Positions 1 through 5,885 of a DNA stretch of 5,885 nt are shown here, piece by piece. Every line of letters starts with the position of its first letter. Within the stretch, counting starts at the first letter, position 1. The DNA comes from Anaerolineales bacterium (lineage in GTDB: Bacteria > Chloroflexota > Anaerolineae > Promineifilales > Promineifilaceae), in contig JAGQGA010000225.1 in the NCBI GenBank assembly GCA_020432595.1, positions 1 to 5,885 on the forward strand, written 5' to 3'. A program made the position numbers and the translations under genes. The notes under the pieces are model-generated. The model saw only the letters and a program-made list of their open reading frames with translations. It was not told where the DNA came from and did no database searches.

Positions 1-88
1 GAATAGAGGCTCATCGCCGACAAAAGAGTCCAACTTAACGTTTCACATCAATTTTGCACGGTTTTTAACCGATTTTTTAAGGTTTGTC

Positions 89-116
89 GCTTTGAGAATC
101 GTCTCAAGGCTTTTTT
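89..116 (+). terminator. Putative intrinsic terminator on the plus strand
   Basis: Positions 89-97 (GCTTTGAGA) pair with 102-110 (TCTCAAGGC) to give a nine-pair stem with one G-U pair. It is closed by a four-base loop (ATCG) and followed immediately by six T residues (111-116). This is the classic rho-independent arrangement for transcription entering from the left edge. The stem is only moderately GC-rich, so efficiency is uncertain. No gene that would use it lies inside the window. Confidence 0.55.
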
Positions 117-309
117 GGCTTTTCTGCTTTAGCCGAAACTAAAGTGATTATAATTTTCGAGAGAAACATTTTCTGGACACCTTTTATACTAGAAGCAGAA
201 ATTTTTGGGTTTTGAATATTGTCCCACTCTGACAGTTCATGAGCAAACCAACCTGGAATTTATAGCCAGATAGAAAAAGCTCTTCTACTGTTTGTTGCTG
301 GGCTGGGGC

Positions 310-319
310 AACGGCCGTT
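310..319. repeat. AACGGCCGTT palindrome, copy 1
   Basis: Exact copy, just beyond the TGA stop of the first XRE gene (minus strand), so non-coding in the present annotation. Confidence 0.9.
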
Positions 320-598
320 TCACCACATGCCCCCGCTCATTGTTTTCAAAAAAGGTAAAGAAGTTAACGGCCGTTCCCCTCGGGCGATTTCGACAAAAAC
401 GTCGTGCTGGTCGGTGGGGATTTGCAGGGTTTTGCCGAGGGCTTGGGCGAGTTCGGCTGAGGGTTGGCGTTCGTCGGCCTCGATTTTTTTGATCATGGCA
501 AGCGAGCAGAAAACGGCCGTTGCCACCTCCCGCTGTGTCAAACGCAGCTGCTTGCGCCGCTGTTTTAGCCATTCGCCAAAAAAGTAGGTGTCCATCAT
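320..598 (-). CDS. Short XRE-family helix-turn-helix protein, probable stub of a larger regulator
   Basis: The predicted protein is 92 residues. Residues about 8-50 form a Cro/C1-type helix-turn-helix: FGEWLKQRRKQL, then LTQREVATAV (helix 2), then the recognition segment CSLAMIKKIEADERQPS. The tail FVEIARGERP (68-77) is typical of Chloroflexota regulators in which the XRE domain leads into a long ATPase and TPR region. Here the protein ends 15 residues later (LTSLPFLKTMSGGMW), so the rest is missing. The start at 596-598 is chosen because AAGGA (607-611) lies eight bases upstream; longer starts add a non-domain leader. A second diverged copy lies at 2353-2495. A small free-standing DNA-binding protein is possible, but a decayed 5' stub is at least as likely. 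The DNA carries two AACGGCCGTT copies inside the frame. Confidence 0.65.
   Translation of the reverse strand: MMDTYFFGEWLKQRRKQLRLTQREVATAVFCSLAMIKKIEADERQPSAELAQALGKTLQIPTDQHDVFVEIARGERPLTSLPFLKTMSGGMW
366..375. repeat. AACGGCCGTT palindrome, copy 2
   Basis: Exact copy inside the first XRE gene, read on the minus strand in the frame giving E-R-P-L (residues 76-79). Confidence 0.9.
459..598 (-). repeat. Diverged 140-bp repeat, XRE copy A
   Basis: This segment, from the start codon through the end of the helix-turn-helix codons, aligns with 2353-2495 along its whole length with one 3-base length difference. At protein level about 42 of 50 residues agree. The sequence just upstream of both starts also shares AGACAG followed by an AT-rich leader, so the copies derive from one gene family, including its 5' flank. 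Confidence 0.85.
512..521. repeat. AACGGCCGTT palindrome, copy 3
   Basis: Exact copy in the first XRE gene, read on the minus strand as T-A-V within the helix-turn-helix (residues 27-29). The same place in the diverged XRE copy also carries the palindrome. Confidence 0.9.
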
Positions 599-630
599 AG
601 CGATATTCCTTACCTGTCTTTTTCGCCCTG

Positions 631-636
631 ATTGTA
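631..636 (-). promoter_or_regulatory. Possible -10 element for the first XRE gene
   Basis: The minus strand reads TACAAT here (five of six matches to TATAAT). It would place a transcript start near 624, ahead of the ribosome binding site at 607-611. No good -35 hexamer lies 16-18 bases upstream. The position between the CPBP terminator and the XRE start suits a separate promoter. The evidence is weak. Confidence 0.3.
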
Positions 637-671
637 TCCCAAAAGGGAGACCAACCGAATCCAAACAGAGG

Positions 672-698
672 AAAAAGAGCAACCCTTGTGGTTGCTCT
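672..698 (-). terminator. Intrinsic terminator of the CPBP protease gene
   Basis: Positions 676-684 (AGAGCAACC) and 690-698 (GGTTGCTCT) form a perfect nine-pair stem with a five-base loop. On the minus strand the stem runs into five T residues (672-676, the last of which is also in the stem). It lies about 33 bases after the CPBP stop codon and ahead of the XRE gene, separating the two transcription units. Confidence 0.8.
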
Positions 699-730
699 CC
701 TGCATTTGTTTGATTGCGTTGGAGCCTTGT

Positions 731-1552
731 TTAACTCATGACGGCAACAATCATTACCAGCCACCCCAGCCCATTGAACAAAGCGTGGGCGATGAAAGCG
801 GGCCAGTTGTTCTTTGTCCGTTGCGAAACATACGCCATTGGTAAACAAACGGCGAGCAAACCAATCAAGTCCCACCATTTGTGAACGTGGAAGGCTGTCC
901 ATAGCAGCCCGTGCCACACCCAAGCATAGCGACCATGTGTTGCTTCTTGCCGTGGGAGCAGGTAGCCACGCCACCACAATTCTTCGCCGACGATGTTAAA
1001 GAAAAACATGATGAAATAGAGAATCACAACACCCCAGTTGCCTGAAATGTGTCCCCCAACCATGTTGTCTAATACGGCCGTTGTTAACCCTACACGCGGG
1101 TCGAGTAATGCTGGCAGATAATGGGGTATAGGCATCCAGCCCTGTGTTGCCATCGTTGCTACGGCATTCAATAGACCATAGCCAACCATGATCACCGCAA
1201 ATAGTCCCAACCCTTGCAAAATCGCTCTGAGCGTGAGGCGTGGATAGCGAAAACGCTGACTGAAGGCTGGCCATGTTAGCGGATAGCCATCAGCTTTGTG
1301 ATACATGACCAGGGCCGCTGTCAGCATCAAGGCCATGGGTACGCTGTAGCCGACAACCATGCTTTCAAATGGTGTCAGTCCGATGATCTGTAATAATGGA
1401 ATTACCCAATGAATGCTAATGACCATCACGAATGACGGAATCCCAAAGGCGAGGGTGGTTTGCCACCAGCGCAACGGCCGTTGCCCGCCGTCCTTCGTAC
1501 CCAGTTCCATGTGATTACTCTGTTGATTATTCATAACGTGTGTTTGTAACAT
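731..1552 (-). CDS. CPBP family intramembrane metalloprotease (CAAX protease-like)
   Basis: The predicted 273-residue, very hydrophobic protein has about six to seven membrane segments (roughly 33-55, 63-84, 110-132, 173-189, 211-224, 228-241, 250-270). It carries the signature motifs of CPBP/CAAX-prenyl-protease-type glutamic/metal proteases. These are GEELWWRG with Glu190-Glu191 and Arg195 (EExxxR), WTAFHVH at 218-224 (the second motif, with Trp in place of the usual Phe four residues before His222), and HALFN at 256-260 (HxxxN). Family members cleave or process peptides within the membrane; prokaryotic ones are often tied to bacteriocin maturation or immunity, but the substrate here is unknown. 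The start at 1550-1552 has AAGGAG nine bases upstream. It lies 69 bp downstream of tetR, with a matching operator in the gap, so it is very probably a target of that repressor. It ends in its own terminator. Confidence 0.9.
   Translation of the reverse strand: MLQTHVMNNQQSNHMELGTKDGGQRPLRWWQTTLAFGIPSFVMVISIHWVIPLLQIIGLTPFESMVVGYSVPMALMLTAALVMYHKADGYPLTWPAFSQRFRYPRLTLRAILQGLGLFAVIMVGYGLLNAVATMATQGWMPIPHYLPALLDPRVGLTTAVLDNMVGGHISGNWGVVILYFIMFFFNIVGEELWWRGYLLPRQEATHGRYAWVWHGLLWTAFHVHKWWDLIGLLAVCLPMAYVSQRTKNNWPAFIAHALFNGLGWLVMIVAVMS
1073..1082. repeat. AACGGCCGTT palindrome, variant copy (one mismatch)
   Basis: TACGGCCGTT on the plus strand. It lies in the CPBP gene and is read on the minus strand as T-A-V (residues 158-160), with GTA in place of GTT as the Val codon. 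The only imperfect copy, it differs at a synonymous third position. Confidence 0.75.
1473..1482. repeat. AACGGCCGTT palindrome, copy 4
   Basis: Exact copy near the start of the CPBP gene, read on the minus strand in the frame giving Q-R-P-L (residues 24-27), in the poorly conserved region before the first membrane segment. Confidence 0.9.
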
Positions 1553-1561
1553 GATTTTGCT

Positions 1562-1567
1562 CTCCTT
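1562..1567 (-). promoter_or_regulatory. Ribosome binding site of the CPBP gene
   Basis: The minus strand reads AAAAGGAGAG ahead of the ATG at 1552, with AAGGAG nine bases upstream. This favours the first ATG over the internal Met7. Confidence 0.75.
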
Positions 1568-1570
1568 TTA

Positions 1571-1592
1571 TGATACATACATGACTGTATGT
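1571..1592. promoter_or_regulatory. Probable TetR operator upstream of the CPBP gene
   Basis: An imperfect 22-bp palindrome. Read on the minus strand it is ACATAC-AGT-CATG-TAT-GTATCA. Aligned with the operator at 2236-2257 (plus strand here against minus strand there), 18 of 22 positions agree, including ATACATACATGA and GTATGT separated by two bases. It ends four bases before the AAGGAG ribosome binding site and overlaps -10-like hexamers (TATCAT or TATGTA on the minus strand). Bound repressor should therefore block transcription of the protease gene. No clean -35/-10 pair could be settled here. Confidence 0.75.
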
Positions 1593-1621
1593 AAATACGG
1601 CAAAAAAATATCTGTCTCAAT

Positions 1622-2230
1622 TTAGGCGGCAATACCTTGCAAGAATATTGCCGCAAATTTAGGGGCTTGTGCCGCAAGCGAAAATGCCTCGCGGTTACTA
1701 AGCCATAAGCTGATCAGGCCGTTTTGAAAGGCAATAAAGGCCCGTGCTACGTCAAAAGGGTCTAGATCAGACCGTAAATCTCCATTTTGAATGCCCTGTT
1801 GCATCAACATGGCAACCCCTTCTACAACTGTGATCGCTTGTTGCTGCCGCATGGCTTCAAACTCTAGCAATTCTGGATCATGTCCGGTCTTGAATAACGT
1901 CAACTCGGTAATTTGGCGCATTTGGCGATTATTCTCCAATAAAGTCAACGAGTTGATTAAGATGTGCGCACAGATTTCCGTGAAGCTGCCGCCACTTGCC
2001 ATTGCTTCCTGTATTGCGCTGCTCCCGATTGTCGAAGCCTCAGTGATGAGATCGTTGTACAGCTTGGCCTTGTTTTCAAAGTGATGGTAAATCGCCCCTC
2101 TAGTGACATTGGCTGCGTTAGCGATGTCGGCCAGGCGGGTGGCATGATACCCCTTTTGGCTGAAAACCGATAATGCAGCTTCCAAAATATCCTGTCGTGT
2201 TTGGGCGGCTTCTTCCGTTGTCCGTCTCAT
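1622..2230 (-). CDS. TetR/AcrR-family transcriptional repressor
   Basis: The predicted protein is 202 residues, the usual length for the family. The N-terminal DNA-binding domain (about 9-55) reads AAQTRQDILEAALSVFSQKG, then TRLADIANAANVTRGAIYHHFENKAKLY. This matches E. coli AcrR closely in the recognition helix (VTRGAIYxHF). The C-terminal part (60-202) is an all-helical ligand-binding region with no recognisable ligand signature. The start at 2228-2230 (MRRTTEEAAQ) is chosen because the promoter TTGACA-N17-TAGTAT puts transcription initiation at about 2230-2231. The upstream in-frame ATG at 2237-2239 and the longer frame back to 2350 would then lie outside the mRNA. No ribosome binding site precedes it. 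It is followed by the CPBP gene. The operators in front of both genes imply autorepression and repression of the protease, released by an unknown ligand. Confidence 0.92.
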   Translation of the reverse strand: MRRTTEEAAQTRQDILEAALSVFSQKGYHATRLADIANAANVTRGAIYHHFENKAKLYNDLITEASTIGSSAIQEAMASGGSFTEICAHILINSLTLLENNRQMRQITELTLFKTGHDPELLEFEAMRQQQAITVVEGVAMLMQQGIQNGDLRSDLDPFDVARAFIAFQNGLISLWLSNREAFSLAAQAPKFAAIFLQGIAA

Positions 2231-2235
2231 AGTTA

Positions 2236-2257
2236 ACATACTATCATGTATGTATGT
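2236..2257. promoter_or_regulatory. Probable TetR autoregulatory operator
   Basis: An imperfect 22-bp palindrome, ACATAC-ATA-CATG-ATA-GTATGT on the minus strand, lying between the -35 and -10 hexamers of tetR and overlapping the -10. The arms ACATAC/GTATGT and the central CATG are perfectly symmetric. With one flanking base it contains TACATACAT on the left and GTATGT on the right, at the spacing of the 24-bp E. coli AcrR operator as I recall it. The site position and the matching copy at 1571-1592 support direct autorepression. Confidence 0.8.
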
Positions 2258-2266
2258 AAATGTCAA
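2238..2266 (-). promoter_or_regulatory. tetR promoter (TTGACA-N17-TAGTAT), implying a leaderless transcript
   Basis: The -35 TTGACA (2261-2266) is a perfect consensus. The -10 TAGTAT (2238-2243) matches five of six bases, and the spacer is 17 bases. Transcription would begin about seven bases after the -10, at or next to the A of the ATG at 2230. The spacer is filled by the operator. Confidence 0.8.
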
Positions 2267-2352
2267 GAGGCAAAATCTACAATTTCCACAAAACCACCCT
2301 GCTGGCCGTCGGGGCGTTGGAGAATATCGGCCAAGGATTGAACAGATCAACC

Positions 2353-2495
2353 GAGGGTTGGCGTTCGTCGGCTTCGATTTTTTTGATCATGGCGGTGGAG
2401 CAATAAACGGCCGTTGCCACTTCGCACTGTGTCAATTTCAACTGCTTGCGTCGCTGCTTGAGCCATTCGCCAAAGGAGTAGGTACCAATCATCAT
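2353..2495 (-). repeat. Diverged 143-bp repeat, XRE copy B
   Basis: Partner of the segment at 459-598, in the same orientation about 1.9 kb away. It has one extra codon near the start (MMIGTYSF against MMDTYFF). Confidence 0.85.
2406..2415. repeat. AACGGCCGTT palindrome, copy 5
   Basis: Exact copy in the XRE remnant, read on the minus strand as T-A-V and homologous in position to copy 3. Bases flanking it differ between the two XRE copies while the palindrome itself is unchanged. Confidence 0.9.
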
Positions 2496-2520
2496 GCTAT
2501 TTCATATTCATCTGTCTGCG

Positions 2521-2949
2521 CTATTGTTTATCGTCCATGTCCTTCCACACCGCTTTCTCCTTAGCAGACAGTTCGACAAACAAATCTTCGCCATAGTTTA
2601 TCCGCAATAATTTCACCGCTTCGTGTAATTGATCATAATCAGCGGTTACGCGGCCATGAAGCGAACTTTTGGAAACGCGTGACCAAGAAACATGCAGCTT
2701 ACGTTTTCTAAACTTAACCCAGCACTCTGCCGTATATAAGTTACCCTTGCCATCCTGATATTCAACTACATACCGAAGTCGGCGACGCGGAATAGAGATA
2801 ACGCTTACCTCCGATCCCCCACTGGCTATAATATTCTGATAAATTTGCGCCCGTGCAATCTTCTCACGTTCATGATCAACAAAAATAATGATGATGATGA
2901 AAGAAACAACAATTGAGCCAAGAACAAACCCTATAATGGATTCCAGCAT
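2521..2949 (-). CDS. Small single-pass membrane protein of unknown function
   Basis: I do not recognise this family. The predicted 142-residue protein has an N-terminal membrane helix (about 3-24, ending in a run of isoleucines), then a basic/charged linker (DHEREKIARAQ). A cytoplasm-like domain follows (about 38-142) with alternating strands (EVSVISIPRRRLRYVVEYQD, LYTAECWVKF, KLHVSWSRV) and a helical C-terminus. The lack of a second membrane segment suggests a signal-anchor protein. The start at 2947-2949 is chosen because AAGGA lies seven bases upstream and the frame further upstream runs into the S51 gene. It follows that gene by 35 bp in the same direction and is probably co-transcribed with it. 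The short run of ATGATGATGA at about 2888-2898 only encodes part of the isoleucine stretch. Confidence 0.75.
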   Translation of the reverse strand: MLESIIGFVLGSIVVSFIIIIIFVDHEREKIARAQIYQNIIASGGSEVSVISIPRRRLRYVVEYQDGKGNLYTAECWVKFRKRKLHVSWSRVSKSSLHGRVTADYDQLHEAVKLLRINYGEDLFVELSAKEKAVWKDMDDKQ

Positions 2950-2984
2950 GTCATAATCCTTGGCATGAAAGAACGCCAGCTTGT

Positions 2985-3716
2985 TTACACCGCACCAGCC
3001 ACATGAATGGAAAGCTGAACCACGTTTTCCGATTGTCTCCATACATGATAACAATGCCCTCGACCATAAACACGCATCTGCTGGTCACTAACGGCTAGTA
3101 GGGTATTTTCATCAATAGCCCAGCCCTCATCTACTAACCCCAATTTGACAGCGTGAATAAGGCGGGTTAGCGTTCCCATCTGGCTGGCATGAACATCGAC
3201 AGCAAATGGCACTAAGCCTAACCCTTGTCTTGTTGTCAGCGGGTCGATCCCTTCGCTGGCACCGACAAACAAGATGTCGCGTTGCTGTGCCTGCCAGCCA
3301 CCCACAATGGCAGTTTGAGCCGCAATGGCAGCCCCGGCGGAGGTGCCGCCATAGGGAATCTGGGTTTCTTGCAAATAGGCAAGCCACGCTGGGTTTACAC
3401 AGAGTGCTTGTTGATAGCTAGGGGTAACGCCACCGCAAACAAATAAACCCGATGGCGCAATGTGGACAAGCATTTCATAGGTGAGTGGGTTTGTTTTTGT
3501 GGCGTAAATGGGAGCTATATTGTCTGCGGGGAAGCCGATGCTGGTGAAGATGGTGCTGTAGGCTTGTTGGCTTTCAAAAACGGCCGTTTCCTCCTCCTCC
3601 AAAACCAAAGCCAGCTTACCCGTCTCCCCCACCATCATCGCCGCAACAAACTGCCCAAACGTCTCTCGACGACTGGCTACATCATCCCCACCCCCATGAA
3701 GGAATATTCTACACAT
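2985..3716 (-). CDS. Peptidase S51 / cyanophycinase-like protein (type 1 glutamine amidotransferase-like fold)
   Basis: The predicted 243-residue protein opens with the beta-strand and glycine turn IFLHGGGDD. It carries the nucleophile elbow GGTSAGAA at 123-130 with the presumed catalytic Ser126, the signature shared by cyanophycinase and dipeptidase E. A GLGLVPFAVDVHASQ segment (165-179) supplies a candidate His176, where cyanophycinases have a DQHF motif. IDENT at 201-205 corresponds to another conserved block. FVCGGVTPSYQ (92-102) stands where cyanophycinases usually have GGDQ, so the substrate may differ. Family members cleave beta-aspartyl or Asp-X bonds in the cytoplasm; no cyanophycin synthetase is present in the window. 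The start at 3714-3716 has GAGGT five bases upstream. It is divergent from the GNAT gene and heads a likely two-gene operon with the membrane protein. Confidence 0.85.
   Translation of the reverse strand: MCRIFLHGGGDDVASRRETFGQFVAAMMVGETGKLALVLEEEETAVFESQQAYSTIFTSIGFPADNIAPIYATKTNPLTYEMLVHIAPSGLFVCGGVTPSYQQALCVNPAWLAYLQETQIPYGGTSAGAAIAAQTAIVGGWQAQQRDILFVGASEGIDPLTTRQGLGLVPFAVDVHASQMGTLTRLIHAVKLGLVDEGWAIDENTLLAVSDQQMRVYGRGHCYHVWRQSENVVQLSIHVAGAV
3579..3588. repeat. AACGGCCGTT palindrome, copy 6
   Basis: Exact copy in the S51 gene, read on the minus strand as T-A-V (residues 44-46), directly after a run of glutamates. Confidence 0.9.
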
Positions 3717-3720
3717 ACAC

Positions 3721-3727
3721 TACCTCT
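3721..3727 (-). promoter_or_regulatory. Ribosome binding site of the S51 gene
   Basis: The minus strand reads AGAGGTA ahead of the ATG at 3716, with five bases between GAGGT and the start. This supports the chosen start. Confidence 0.6.
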
Positions 3728-3828
3728 GGAATTTTTCACCCTGAGCCATATCCGCTAGAATCCACTCAGCTCATGCAAAATAGATCGTTCACCTTATGGC
3801 CCCACAAAAGGGTTACTGCTTTTACGAC

Positions 3829-3834
3829 ATTATA
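3829..3834 (-). promoter_or_regulatory. Possible -10 element in the S51/GNAT divergent region
   Basis: The minus strand reads a perfect TATAAT, about 112 bases ahead of the S51 start. The -35 region at 17 bases (GTGGTT) is poor. No better promoter for either divergent gene was found in 3717-3872, so the assignment is tentative. Confidence 0.35.
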
Positions 3835-3872
3835 GGCTTAAAAATTCACGAAACCACACAGAGAAGATACAA

Positions 3873-4346
3873 ATGGAAAGAAACATGATCATAATCACCC
3901 TTCTCGCCGATCACCCTGAAACCATTCCCACCCTTTGCCAATGGTTTCGCGCCCAATGGCCCGCTTATTATGCCGAGCGCACCCTAACCGATATTGCCCA
4001 AGATTTTGCCGAGGAAGCCAACCGCACAGGTATAGACATACGGCTGGTAGCCTTCGCCGACGGCGAGTTAGCAGGGACAATTACGCTGCGTGAGGAAGCA
4101 ACCTGGACTTTGCCCGAATATGGACCAGGCTTGGGGGGCTTACTCGTTACTGAACCATACCGTGGCCGGGGAATTGGCTCCGCGTTGGTCACCGCGGGCA
4201 TGAATGTGGCGCGGGAGCAGGGGTTTGCGCGGGTTTATGCGACAACAACGGCGGCACGGGGTATTTTGGAACGTTTGGGGTGGCATCAAGTTCAGGTGGC
4301 CTTGCCGGACGAGGAACATGGGTTGCTTTATGAGGTTGAGCTTTAA
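3873..4346 (+). CDS. GNAT-family N-acetyltransferase
   Basis: The predicted 157-residue protein is the usual length for a single-domain GNAT. It moves an acetyl group from acetyl-CoA to an amine whose identity cannot be read from the sequence. Motif A is clear: GGLLVTEPYRGRGIGSALV (88-106), with the coenzyme A pyrophosphate loop RGRGIG at 97-102. It is preceded by strands LVAFADGELAGTITLR (58-73) and followed by the helix MNVAREQGFARVYATT and ARGILERLGWHQVQ (128-141), the typical motif B. The N-terminus (TIPTLCQWFRAQWPAYY) resembles GNATs annotated only by fold. The start at 3873 has a weak GAGAAG six bases upstream; the ATG at 3885 is nearly as good, preceded by GGAAAG. It is the only plus-strand gene, divergent from the S51 gene and convergent with the PLP enzyme. 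Confidence 0.88.
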   Translation: MERNMIIITLLADHPETIPTLCQWFRAQWPAYYAERTLTDIAQDFAEEANRTGIDIRLVAFADGELAGTITLREEATWTLPEYGPGLGGLLVTEPYRGRGIGSALVTAGMNVAREQGFARVYATTTAARGILERLGWHQVQVALPDEEHGLLYEVEL

Positions 4347-4356
4347 AACGGCCGTT
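4347..4356. repeat. AACGGCCGTT palindrome, copy 7
   Basis: Exact copy starting on the base after the GNAT stop codon. It is non-coding and extends by one base on each side to a 12-bp palindrome, AAACGGCCGTTT. Confidence 0.9.
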
Positions 4357-4393
4357 TAGCCACCGCTTTCATCAGCCTCTATATTCATTCGAT

Positions 4394-4435
4394 AAAAAAG
4401 AATGGAGATTGGTAAAAGAACGCAATCTCCATTCT
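4394..4435 (-). terminator. Intrinsic terminator of the PLP-enzyme gene
   Basis: Positions 4399-4411 (AGAATGGAGATTG) pair perfectly with 4423-4435 (CAATCTCCATTCT), giving a 13-pair stem with an 11-base loop. Read on the minus strand it runs into TTTTTT (4394-4399, one of which is also in the stem). It starts ten bases after the TAG of the PLP enzyme. On the plus strand no T run follows, so it should not serve the convergent GNAT gene well. A second CAATCTCC at 4437-4444 repeats the stem arm at 4423-4430 and could compete in pairing. Confidence 0.88.
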
Positions 4436-4445
4436 CCAATCTCCA

Positions 4446-5885
4446 CTAACCGCCTTGCACCCGTTTGTTAAACGCCACAATCAGCCGGTCAATTTCGTCA
4501 GCCTTGCCGTGGATCGAAGTCCAATAGCTATCGTCATACCACTGCGCCTGAATTTCAGCGTAGGTTTTGCCCTGCTGCTCCACCCAAGTGTAATATTTCA
4601 GGTTGTGGATACGCTTGCGGTCATAGTAGCCAAGCTCCTGCACATGGTCAATGGTCGTACCCATGATATAGCGCTGATAAATGCCAGCCGCATCCAACAT
4701 CGAAAGCGCCCCGTGTGCCGCATCCATTTCCTGCACGCGACTGCCGTACATGTCCATCGAGTCGGTGGCAACGGTTAGCACCACGTCATCTTCGGTCATT
4801 TCGTAATATTTGGCAAATTTAACGGCCGTTAACACATTCGCAATCCCCGAAATCCCTAGCAGCCGCAATTGATGCACCATGCTCTCCTCCACACCCTGGT
4901 TCACCAAAAACTCCTGCCCAATCTCATCGTTAAACAGCCGCATAATGTTCATCGGGGCATTATCATCAATCGCCACCACCATGTCGGTGTTTTTGATGTT
5001 GTGTACCCACGGCACATGCTTGTCGCCAATCCCCTCAATACGGTGGTCGCCAAAGCCGTTGTTGAGCAGCGTCGGGCATTGCAGTGCCTCGCTGGCAACA
5101 ATTTTGCTGCCGGGAAACTGCTGCTTCAAGAAGTCACCACACGCTATCGTACCCGCCGACCCAGTGGATGAGACGATGCCCCGGTAACGGCCGTTAACCG
5201 CCCCCAACACCTCCATCATCGCCGCCCCCGTCACCGTGTAATGCCACAGGTAGTTGCCAAACTCATCAAACTGGTTAAAAATCACCAAATCCTGACCCGA
5301 CTGCCGCAGCTCCCAGCATTTGTCAAAGATTTCCTTCACATTGCTTTCCGTACCCGGCGTTTTAATAATCTCACCCGCCACCGACTCCAGCCAAGCAAAC
5401 CGCTCCCGGCTCATCCCCTCCGGCAAAATGGCAATGGATTCACACCCCAGCAGTGCCGAATCATACGCCCCACCCCGGCAATAATTCCCCGTCGAAGGCC
5501 ACACCGCCTTCTGCGTCGTCGGGTCAAACTGCCCCGTCACCAAGCGTGGAGCCAGGCAGCCAAACGCCGCCCCCACCTTATGCGCCCCCGTTGGGAACCA
5601 TTTCCCCAGCAGCACCACCACCCGTGCCTTCGTTCCCGTCAGCGAAGATGGCAGTTCCATATAATTAACCCCACCAAACCCGCCACCGTGCGCCACCGGC
5701 TCATTATGCCATGTAATGCGGAACAAATTGACCGGGTTAATATCCCACAGCCCCACGCCACCCAACTGCTGCTTCACCTCAGCCGGAATCAACGCCGGGT
5801 TTTTCATCTGGGCAAACGTCGGAATCACAATCCGCTGCTCCCGCGCCCGCTGCACCGACCGCCCCAATGCTTCTTCATGAATCAT
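4446..5885 (-). CDS. PLP-dependent fold-type II enzyme, cysteine-synthase/TrpB-like, exact reaction unknown
   Basis: The frame covers 479 residues and begins with an ATG at the very edge of the window, so the start may lie further upstream. The order of motifs is that of tryptophan synthase beta-superfamily enzymes. WFPTGAHKVGAA (96-107) holds the presumed Schiff-base Lys103, in a TGAHK context like TrpB. STGNYCRGGAYDSALLG (131-147) is the substrate-binding Asn loop. SSTGSAGT (239-246) is the phosphate-binding glycine loop, followed by GSKIVASEALQCPTLLNNG and HRIEGIG (281-287), as in cysteine synthases. GISGIANVLTAVKFAK (344-359) and TVATDSMDMYGSR (371-383) match the C-terminal pyridine-ring region. 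The C-terminal 95 residues (KYYTWVEQQGKTYAEIQAQW) are beyond the usual core. It is probably a beta-replacement or beta-elimination enzyme of amino-acid metabolism, but the substrate is not determinable. Transcription ends at the hairpin at 4394-4435. Confidence 0.88.
   Translation of the reverse strand: MIHEEALGRSVQRAREQRIVIPTFAQMKNPALIPAEVKQQLGGVGLWDINPVNLFRITWHNEPVAHGGGFGGVNYMELPSSLTGTKARVVVLLGKWFPTGAHKVGAAFGCLAPRLVTGQFDPTTQKAVWPSTGNYCRGGAYDSALLGCESIAILPEGMSRERFAWLESVAGEIIKTPGTESNVKEIFDKCWELRQSGQDLVIFNQFDEFGNYLWHYTVTGAAMMEVLGAVNGRYRGIVSSTGSAGTIACGDFLKQQFPGSKIVASEALQCPTLLNNGFGDHRIEGIGDKHVPWVHNIKNTDMVVAIDDNAPMNIMRLFNDEIGQEFLVNQGVEESMVHQLRLLGISGIANVLTAVKFAKYYEMTEDDVVLTVATDSMDMYGSRVQEMDAAHGALSMLDAAGIYQRYIMGTTIDHVQELGYYDRKRIHNLKYYTWVEQQGKTYAEIQAQWYDDSYWTSIHGKADEIDRLIVAFNKRVQGG
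4821..4830. repeat. AACGGCCGTT palindrome, copy 8
   Basis: Exact copy in the PLP-enzyme gene, read on the minus strand as T-A-V (residues 353-355) within a conserved helix. Confidence 0.9.
5186..5195. repeat. AACGGCCGTT palindrome, copy 9
   Basis: Exact copy in the PLP-enzyme gene, read on the minus strand as N-G-R (residues 231-233), the third possible frame. It sits inside a longer palindrome, GGTTAACGGCCGTTAACC, less its outer GG pair on the left (TAACGGCCGTTA is fully symmetric). Confidence 0.9.

Follow-up and report, generated by a model that had tools for sequence, protein, structure and literature searches.

A highly iterated palindrome system in one family of Chloroflexota

The palindromic 8-mer ACGGCCGT is repeated thousands of times in the genomes of one Chloroflexota family, where it forms a highly iterated palindrome (HIP) system. 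The stretch of DNA in which it came to notice, here termed the window (5,885 nucleotides; positions 1 to 5,885 of the forward strand of contig JAGQGA010000225.1, assembly GCA_020432595.1, Anaerolineales bacterium), carries nine exact copies of a 10-bp form, AACGGCCGTT, together with a tenth copy, TACGGCCGTT, that differs from it at one position. A preliminary description had called the word HIP1-like, after its cyanobacterial counterpart, and descriptively this was right: it is a palindrome with thousands of copies per genome, at 500–2100 per Mb, in all reading frames, and in some relatives other palindromes take its place. Recounting gave the same nine exact copies and one single-mismatch copy, and with up to one mismatch from AACGGCCGTT allowed there are 10 matches in the window as against a mean of 0.27 and a maximum of 2 in 200 dinucleotide-preserving shuffles. 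Also as described, each of the ten CGGCCG hexamers in this stretch is part of a AACGGCCGTT or TACGGCCGTT site. The accompanying claim that the 10-mer, and not the hexamer, is the enriched unit stands for the sublineage of the window and falls for the family as a whole, where the recurring word is ACGGCCGT, built around a CGGCCG core.

Genome-wide counts are those of relatives of the window and not of its own genome (G numbers designate genomes and L numbers loci). Searching with the gene for a pyridoxal phosphate (PLP)-dependent enzyme in the window gave 80 loci, mostly labelled Chloroflexota/Anaerolineae, with a top identity of 74% and with sources that include Chloroflexi bacterium BJ8, Go_SlAct_bin_68, HKST-UBA48, KLAP72 and bin10092. 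Five are strongly enriched in ACGGCCGT (47 copies in 21.4 kb of L003, 33 in 21.4 kb of L004, 11 in 10.1 kb of L005, 9 in 9.3 kb of L006 and 8 in 5.9 kb of L057), the remaining 75 having 0–3 copies. The 7.2 Mb of G003 contain 15,031 copies, and the same word reversed, TGCCGGCA, occurs there 130 times; G004 has 12,611, G005 6,777, G006 6,888 and G014 6,466. In the family to which these results lead, represented by 52 genomes with a highest count of 15,176, the word is present at 991–2102 per Mb in 27, the next genome having 514 per Mb, and TGCCGGCA, of the same composition, is at 9–67 per Mb in those 27. A sample of 298 genomes from the class includes eight with at least 990 per Mb, all eight from this family. 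Near-expected counts genome-wide, or confinement to one repeated gene family, were the outcomes that the preliminary description saw as fatal to its idea; the counts in relatives are far above expectation, and the thousands of copies, in many separately assembled genomes, do not belong to any one gene family. One genome, G012, has 2887 copies in 6.6 Mb (437 per Mb) yet no enrichment in a 16.6-kb sample; it is possibly a mixed bin, and because sample and genome count disagree it was excluded from the main ACGGCCGT group. Six of the 298 class genomes, of 3.3–5.5 Mb (G034, G066, G137, G168, G254 and G260), have zero copies, which suggests strong avoidance of the word or of its core.

Relative to an order-2 expectation with the sites masked, the observed-to-expected ratios (O/E) in coding and non-coding DNA respectively are 70 and 68 for G246, 69 and 92 for G313, where the word type is TCGGCCGA, and 67 and 118 for G004. 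The copies analyzed in G246 comprise 739 coding, with frame offsets of 410, 229 and 100, and 42 non-coding; the higher raw density in its coding DNA (2.05 versus 1.09 per kb) is accounted for by base composition.

Not all members of the family use the same word. In fetched stretches the most over-represented 8-mer is ACGGCCGT in G246 (787 in 400 kb), G004 (352 in 175 kb), G005 (141 in 133 kb) and G003, TCGGCCGA in G313 (278 in 200 kb) and TGCCGGCA in G319 (64 in 64 kb). There are 62 TCGGCCGA in 40 kb of G108 and 73 GCGGCCGC, with 3.3 expected, in a 40-kb sample of G193, and bare CGGCCG lacking an outer preference characterizes G164 (90 in 20 kb), G293, G335, G336, G337 and G216. At the whole-genome level TCGGCCGA reaches 9,414 in G313 (1207 per Mb) and 7,668 in G108 (1504 per Mb), and TGCCGGCA 3,665 in G319. 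The variants ACGGCCGT, TCGGCCGA and GCGGCCGC are strictly symmetric, their outer bases switching jointly. As to the 10-mer, it is a sublineage extension of the family-wide 8-mer: the share of ACGGCCGT sites that are AACGGCCGTT is 84% in G314 and 82% in G315, 50–55% in G180, G331 and G146, and ~5–6% in G003, G310, G246, G311, G312 and G266, and the window, with nine of its ten sites in this form, is like G314 and G315. One-step neighbours of ACGGCCGT in G246, counted on both strands, number 157 for position 1, 55 for position 2, 32 for position 3 and 23 for position 4.

The sites are conserved in place and at the DNA level. Following up a proposal of the preliminary description that orthologous positions be compared, 99 of 108 sites of G246 were found to be kept in G312, at an overall identity of 85.1%. 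For control words of equal composition the kept fraction is 37% (1524 words), and for those with two CpG it is 39% (364 words). Mismatch per position is ~0.00–0.03 inside the word and 0.06–0.34 in the ten flanking bases on each side, with the step in the G246–G312 profile falling exactly at 8 bp; the mean inside the word, ~0.018 compared with 0.149 overall, is about an eighth. Were fixation bias responsible, ln 70 would imply a scaled strength near 4 and a cut in substitution out of the word to less than one-tenth. Sites exceeded controls (0.67–1.00 versus 0.18–0.67) in all 16 comparisons of pairs with at least 15 sites, and among G246, G003 and G312, 36 of 50 sites were kept in all three versus 193 of 1374 control words. 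Polarised changes are few: 4 gains and 3 losses for G246/G003 with G312 as outgroup, 1 gain and 2 losses for G246/G311 with 13 of 18 sites kept, and only 10 sites with G310 as outgroup. In rpoB (25 loci, from 26 genomes with a match) single columns are common to 13 of 14, 12 of 14 and 11 of 15 ACGGCCGT genomes. No in-place conversion between word types was seen in that gene, the TCGGCCGA of G108 and G313 being at a different column, and column 1016 is not type-specific, because the word is there also in three bare-CGGCCG genomes and in G316, which shows no HIP. In the PLP gene no sites in common with the window are visible, that gene being too diverged.

A consequence of such abundance is that the palindrome has reshaped host proteins. 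The tripeptide TAV occurs 396 times in G246, with 52 expected from residue frequencies and 90 from dipeptides; 384 of the occurrences are palindrome-coded and 12 are coded otherwise. DGR, YGR, NGR and HGR in G246 follow the same pattern, and SAV and TAI are at about half of expectation. In G313, the TCGGCCGA genome, it is SAD (76 versus 17 expected, 68 HIP-coded) and SAE (99 versus 18 expected, 92 HIP-coded) that are inflated, TAV being normal at 20, and in pooled non-HIP loci neither TAV (43 versus 40) nor SAD/SAE is inflated. Among places where the residues permit the word at offset 0 it is present in 97% in G246 and G004 and in 91% in G313, such places having themselves been increased in number by the word.

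Copies also exclude one another at short range. Gaps of less than 30 bp are at 0.41 of expectation in G246 and 0.12 in G313, and among control words with comparable counts (85 for G246, 122 for G313) not one is as low. This depletion fits a bound footprint and not blind mutation. In G313 the gaps are in addition more even (coefficient of variation (CV) 0.83, p 0.016).

The word is shared with viral DNA. Scanning viral contigs for AACGGCCGTT close to ACGGCCGT turned up 80 stretches. In 48 of these the density of ACGGCCGT is 1.2 per kb or higher, though some are short and hold little beyond the matched pair. Of 28 viral records counted whole, 21 picked as dense have 1.6–3.7 ACGGCCGT per kb and seven picked as sparse no more than 0.25; one record has 227 ACGGCCGT in 65.5 kb and a single TGCCGGCA. 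When 20 proteins from eight dense viral loci were searched for phage hallmarks, L342 yielded a portal and a terminase, L303 a portal, L327 a terminase, L313 a tape measure and L341 an endolysin; in L283 and L322 the matches were confined to partition, FtsK-like or ATPase-type proteins, and L346 had none. To judge by the word, the HIP-rich viral records probably infect this Chloroflexota family, and they may include prophages. Viral scans for TCGGCCGA and TGCCGGCA returned at least 120 stretches each, mostly chance pairs. Two viral loci, L511 with 11 TCGGCCGA and zero ACGGCCGT in 11.1 kb and L627 with 13 TGCCGGCA in 11.7 kb, are possible counterparts of the other word types. DNA methyltransferase genes are present in two HIP-rich phage-like records (L327, 9824–11098, minus strand; L342, 9695–10948, minus strand), the protein of the former also matching ParB-like families. 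As a common cause a phage-encoded methyltransferase was rejected, similarity to the host enzymes compared being weak.

The preliminary description had advised looking for a solitary methyltransferase recognizing GGCC or CGGCCG. Three families, PF00145, PF01555 and PF02086, were searched for across the 52 genomes, and within this scope, which does not extend to other methyltransferase families, no such enzyme emerged as a common trait and none tracks the word. A universal C5 (PF00145) enzyme is rejected, matches being present in 24 of the 52 genomes and lacking in 13 of the 27 ACGGCCGT genomes. For PF01555 (N4/N6) 48 genomes have a match at E ≤ 0.001, and the matches are only weak in G312, G331, G323 and G325; in the C5-less ACGGCCGT genomes G312, G331 and G325 none is better than 4.3e-8 (9.5e-10 in G180). 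A D12 (PF02086, Dam-like) gene is present in 42 of the 52. It was discarded as the word-setter since a single ortholog group (58–73% identity; 21 extracted frames, wrong-strand G323 and G324 set aside) spans ACGGCCGT, TGCCGGCA and HIP-free genomes. The C5 enzymes inspected are diverse, and those of G164, G335, G336 and G081 are Dcm-like, a call made by search for L107 and L089 and by 65–75% identity for L088 and L090; a CGGCCG specificity for the C5 enzymes of bare-CGGCCG genomes was thereby rejected. With draft assemblies the absence of a single gene is weak evidence, while a pattern extending over 13 genomes is not weak.

What maintains the word? The likeliest reading, though in itself about evenly poised, is that it is the duplex recognition site of a symmetric protein, kept by selection at each site. 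ACGGCCGT would then be bound as duplex DNA by a putative homodimeric or otherwise two-fold symmetric protein, with each copy conferring a small, roughly additive benefit; copies would arise at places where the encoded protein can accommodate them and would thereafter be retained. A change in specificity of the binding protein would alter both half-sites together, after which the genome would re-equilibrate at new positions, and phages of these hosts, meeting the same protein, would acquire the same word. Exact symmetry, joint outer switching, viral sharing, per-site maintenance and exclusion fit such a site, and from them we infer the protein, its symmetry, and selection in preference to biased repair. 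Rather more tentative is the idea of a methylation-independent duplex mark that a symmetric DNA-binding protein or nuclease may recognise either as a sign of ‘self’ or for an architectural purpose; each copy would count, and one specificity change could flip the word genome-wide. Several considerations weigh against recognition by a symmetric protein. No candidate binding protein was identified, and the comparisons were not of whole genomes. As regards O/E and conservation, the predictions of selection and of biased repair are identical. Short-gap depletion could partly reflect protein constraint. Gaps in G246 are near exponential (CV 1.02, Kolmogorov–Smirnov p 0.13), and with a nearly random spacing beyond ~100 bp that genome gives no hint of a set-point for density. 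The viral records show no short-gap depletion; because retrieval required two close sites, they are biased to dense ones and unable to test exclusion. No HIP was seen in small samples of G001 (34.7 kb), G316 (5.7 kb) and G317 (17.9 kb), and the TGCCGGCA word type does not have the CGGCCG core.

The preliminary description had offered a methylation target, a site for a chromosome-organising protein, or a product of biased mutation or repair; the data, with exclusion and symmetric switching, lean to a protein-recognised site, no methyltransferase of the families searched emerged as a shared feature, and biased repair keeps some probability. For a methylation-coupled HIP, in which the word would be modified by a solitary methyltransferase and would owe its origin and upkeep to methyl-directed mismatch repair, there is the close resemblance to the anatomy of cyanobacterial HIPs, which likewise have palindromic extensions, substitute words and deviations concentrated at positions 1 and 8, and the Dam-like D12 gene is widespread in the family. 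Set against this are the 13 ACGGCCGT genomes without a C5 enzyme, three of them also without a strong PF01555 match, the diversity of the C5 enzymes with those of bare-CGGCCG genomes being Dcm-like, and the same D12 orthologs recurring across word types, an adenine enzyme being moreover unable to act on GCGGCCGC; we consider this origin unlikely. A blind mutational or repair drive, with Vsr-like or other biased mismatch repair converting near-matches into a functionless word, would accord with O/E being alike in coding and non-coding DNA and with capture of synonymous near-misses (the 12 non-HIP among 396 TAV, and the shortage of SAV and TAI, in G246), and it would also affect viral DNA passing through the host. 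It is nonetheless quite unlikely in our estimation, given the short-range exclusion in G246 and G313, the lack of depletion of most non-synonymous one-step neighbours, and several viral records, though chosen for density, being denser (at least 2.3 per kb) than hosts. Very unlikely is a Chi-like or self-marking site, where a helicase-nuclease or other defence machine would spare word-bearing DNA and host and phage alike accumulate the word: its over-representation in core genes and viral records is lineage-specific and Chi-like words do vary by lineage, but strict two-fold symmetry and joint outer switching speak for duplex recognition, and known Chi sites are asymmetric. Two of the ten window copies being in paralogous genes is about all that chance, assembly artefact, a protein motif or a single repeated gene family has in its favour, and such explanations are scarcely credible in the face of the shuffles, the many separately assembled genomes, three reading frames, non-coding DNA and DNA-level conservation.

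Returning to the window, its gene assignments and reading frames are as initially given (TAV five times, RPL twice and NGR once), and the early exclusion of a protein-motif explanation is borne out by the three frames, the non-coding copies and the DNA-level conservation. The first AACGGCCGTT site, at 310..319, is non-coding and just beyond the 3′ end of an XRE-type helix-turn-helix gene (320..682, minus strand; Pfam HTH_3 8.3e-10), within which are the second, at 366..375 in the RPL frame, and the third, at 512..521 in the TAV frame. A CAAX-protease-like membrane protein gene (731..1552, minus strand; Pfam Rce1-like 3e-15) has TACGGCCGTT at 1073..1082, read as TAV, in which the 8-mer ACGGCCGT is intact at 1074–1081 and one outer base mismatches the 10-mer, and a AACGGCCGTT at 1473..1482 read as RPL. 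The next open reading frame, for a TetR-family regulator (1622..2350, minus strand; Pfam TetR_N 1.2e-18), is without a site; its 5′ end overlaps a second XRE-type gene (2277..2495, minus strand; Pfam HTH_3 5.4e-07) and its true start may be shorter. The two XRE-type genes are paralogues, the second being shorter, with 77% DNA identity over 212 bp and 82% over 50 amino acids. The TAV site of the second, at 2406..2415, is at the position homologous to that at 512, and for this reason these two are not independent. A peptidase S51-like gene (2985..3716, minus strand; Pfam Peptidase_S51 0.00039, under the curated cut-off) has a TAV site at 3579..3588. The other copy outside called genes, at 4347..4356, immediately follows the stop codon of a GNAT acetyltransferase gene (3873..4346, plus strand; Pfam Acetyltransf_1 1.2e-14), and the PLP-dependent enzyme gene used as the query for finding relatives (4446..5885, minus strand; Pfam PALP 7.1e-16) has a TAV site at 4821..4830 and the NGR site at 5186..5195. 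Elsewhere, short dispersed repeats in G246 (L113, contig C1, at ~2779–2920, 8998–9089 and 12643–12717) match many contigs of G003, G311 and G266 at ~80–98% identity.

To our knowledge the function of cyanobacterial HIP1 has gone unexplained for decades, with matching methyltransferases as the main clue. The Chloroflexota system is apparently independent of the cyanobacterial one, uses five or more alternative words within a single family and is present also in viral records, and its lineages lacking a matching enzyme in the tested families dissociate HIP from methylation to the extent of those tests. The word types are natural replicates, and the word-setting gene should come to light when complete genomes of hosts with ACGGCCGT, TCGGCCGA and GCGGCCGC are compared. 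A force acting at the DNA level reshapes the proteome, favouring TAV or SAD/SAE according to the word, and so biases analyses of protein evolution; the word is in addition a simple signature by which uncultured phages can be linked to their hosts. If the duplex mark is real, every copy would count enough for thousands of protein positions to be rewritten and for phages to copy it.

How does all this compare with known systems? With the Chi sites of RecBCD/AddAB there is in common a short over-represented word that varies with lineage and can matter to phages, but Chi is asymmetric and strand-oriented whereas this word is an exact palindrome, permitting no strand bias, and its switching is symmetric. 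DNA uptake sequences of Neisseriaceae and Pasteurellaceae are similarly dispersed at about one copy per kb; unlike the present word they are not exact palindromes, and uptake alone predicts no viral sharing. A 6–8 bp palindrome with a GGCC core resembles a type II restriction-modification target. Such sites tend to be avoided (PMC4687349), and this word is ~70-fold enriched with no common C5 or PF01555 enzyme. The methylated motifs given for three Lake Biwa Chloroflexi genomes in the portion of PMC6329791 available are GANTC, TTAA and GCWGC, none of them ACGGCCGT, and the available portion of the PMC12772301 methylome gives no motif for this word. No earlier description of the Chloroflexota palindrome was found in CC0, CC BY and CC BY-SA literature, and the preliminary description likewise knew of none for this lineage.

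The closest relation is to the HIPs of cyanobacteria, whose anatomy Elhai 2015 (PMC4390886, on the accessible part of which the cyanobacterial comparisons here rest) described and tied to methyltransferases, proposing methylation-coupled mismatch repair as their origin. The matching methyltransferase present in every HIP genome studied, a point in favour of a methylation-coupled origin for the Chloroflexota word, is given there as a finding and not as part of what defines a HIP, and for the families tested the Chloroflexota word has no such partner. Nor is the word HIP1 itself, being ACGGCCGT with a CGGCCG core in Chloroflexota and not GCGATCGC with a CGATCG core in cyanobacteria; it is shared with phage-like records, for which the accessible text of PMC4390886, where ‘phage’ is absent, supplies no comparison. 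The features of the HIP class are otherwise in evidence: extreme over-representation, ~500–2500 copies per Mb, dispersal, deviations at the outer positions, and alternative palindromes in relatives, the last not universal (G001, G316, G317). Like HIP1 (PMC4390886) the word is a GC-rich 8-bp palindrome at roughly 1000–2000 per Mb, in coding and non-coding DNA and in all frames. A swap of the outer pair alone relates GCGATCGC to TCGATCGA in cyanobacteria just as it relates ACGGCCGT, TCGGCCGA and GCGGCCGC in Chloroflexota, extension to a palindromic 10-mer affects 88% of sites in Synechocystis 6803 and 82–84% in G314/G315, and in both systems one-step deviations are commonest at positions 1/8 and rarest at 4/5 (PMC4390886).

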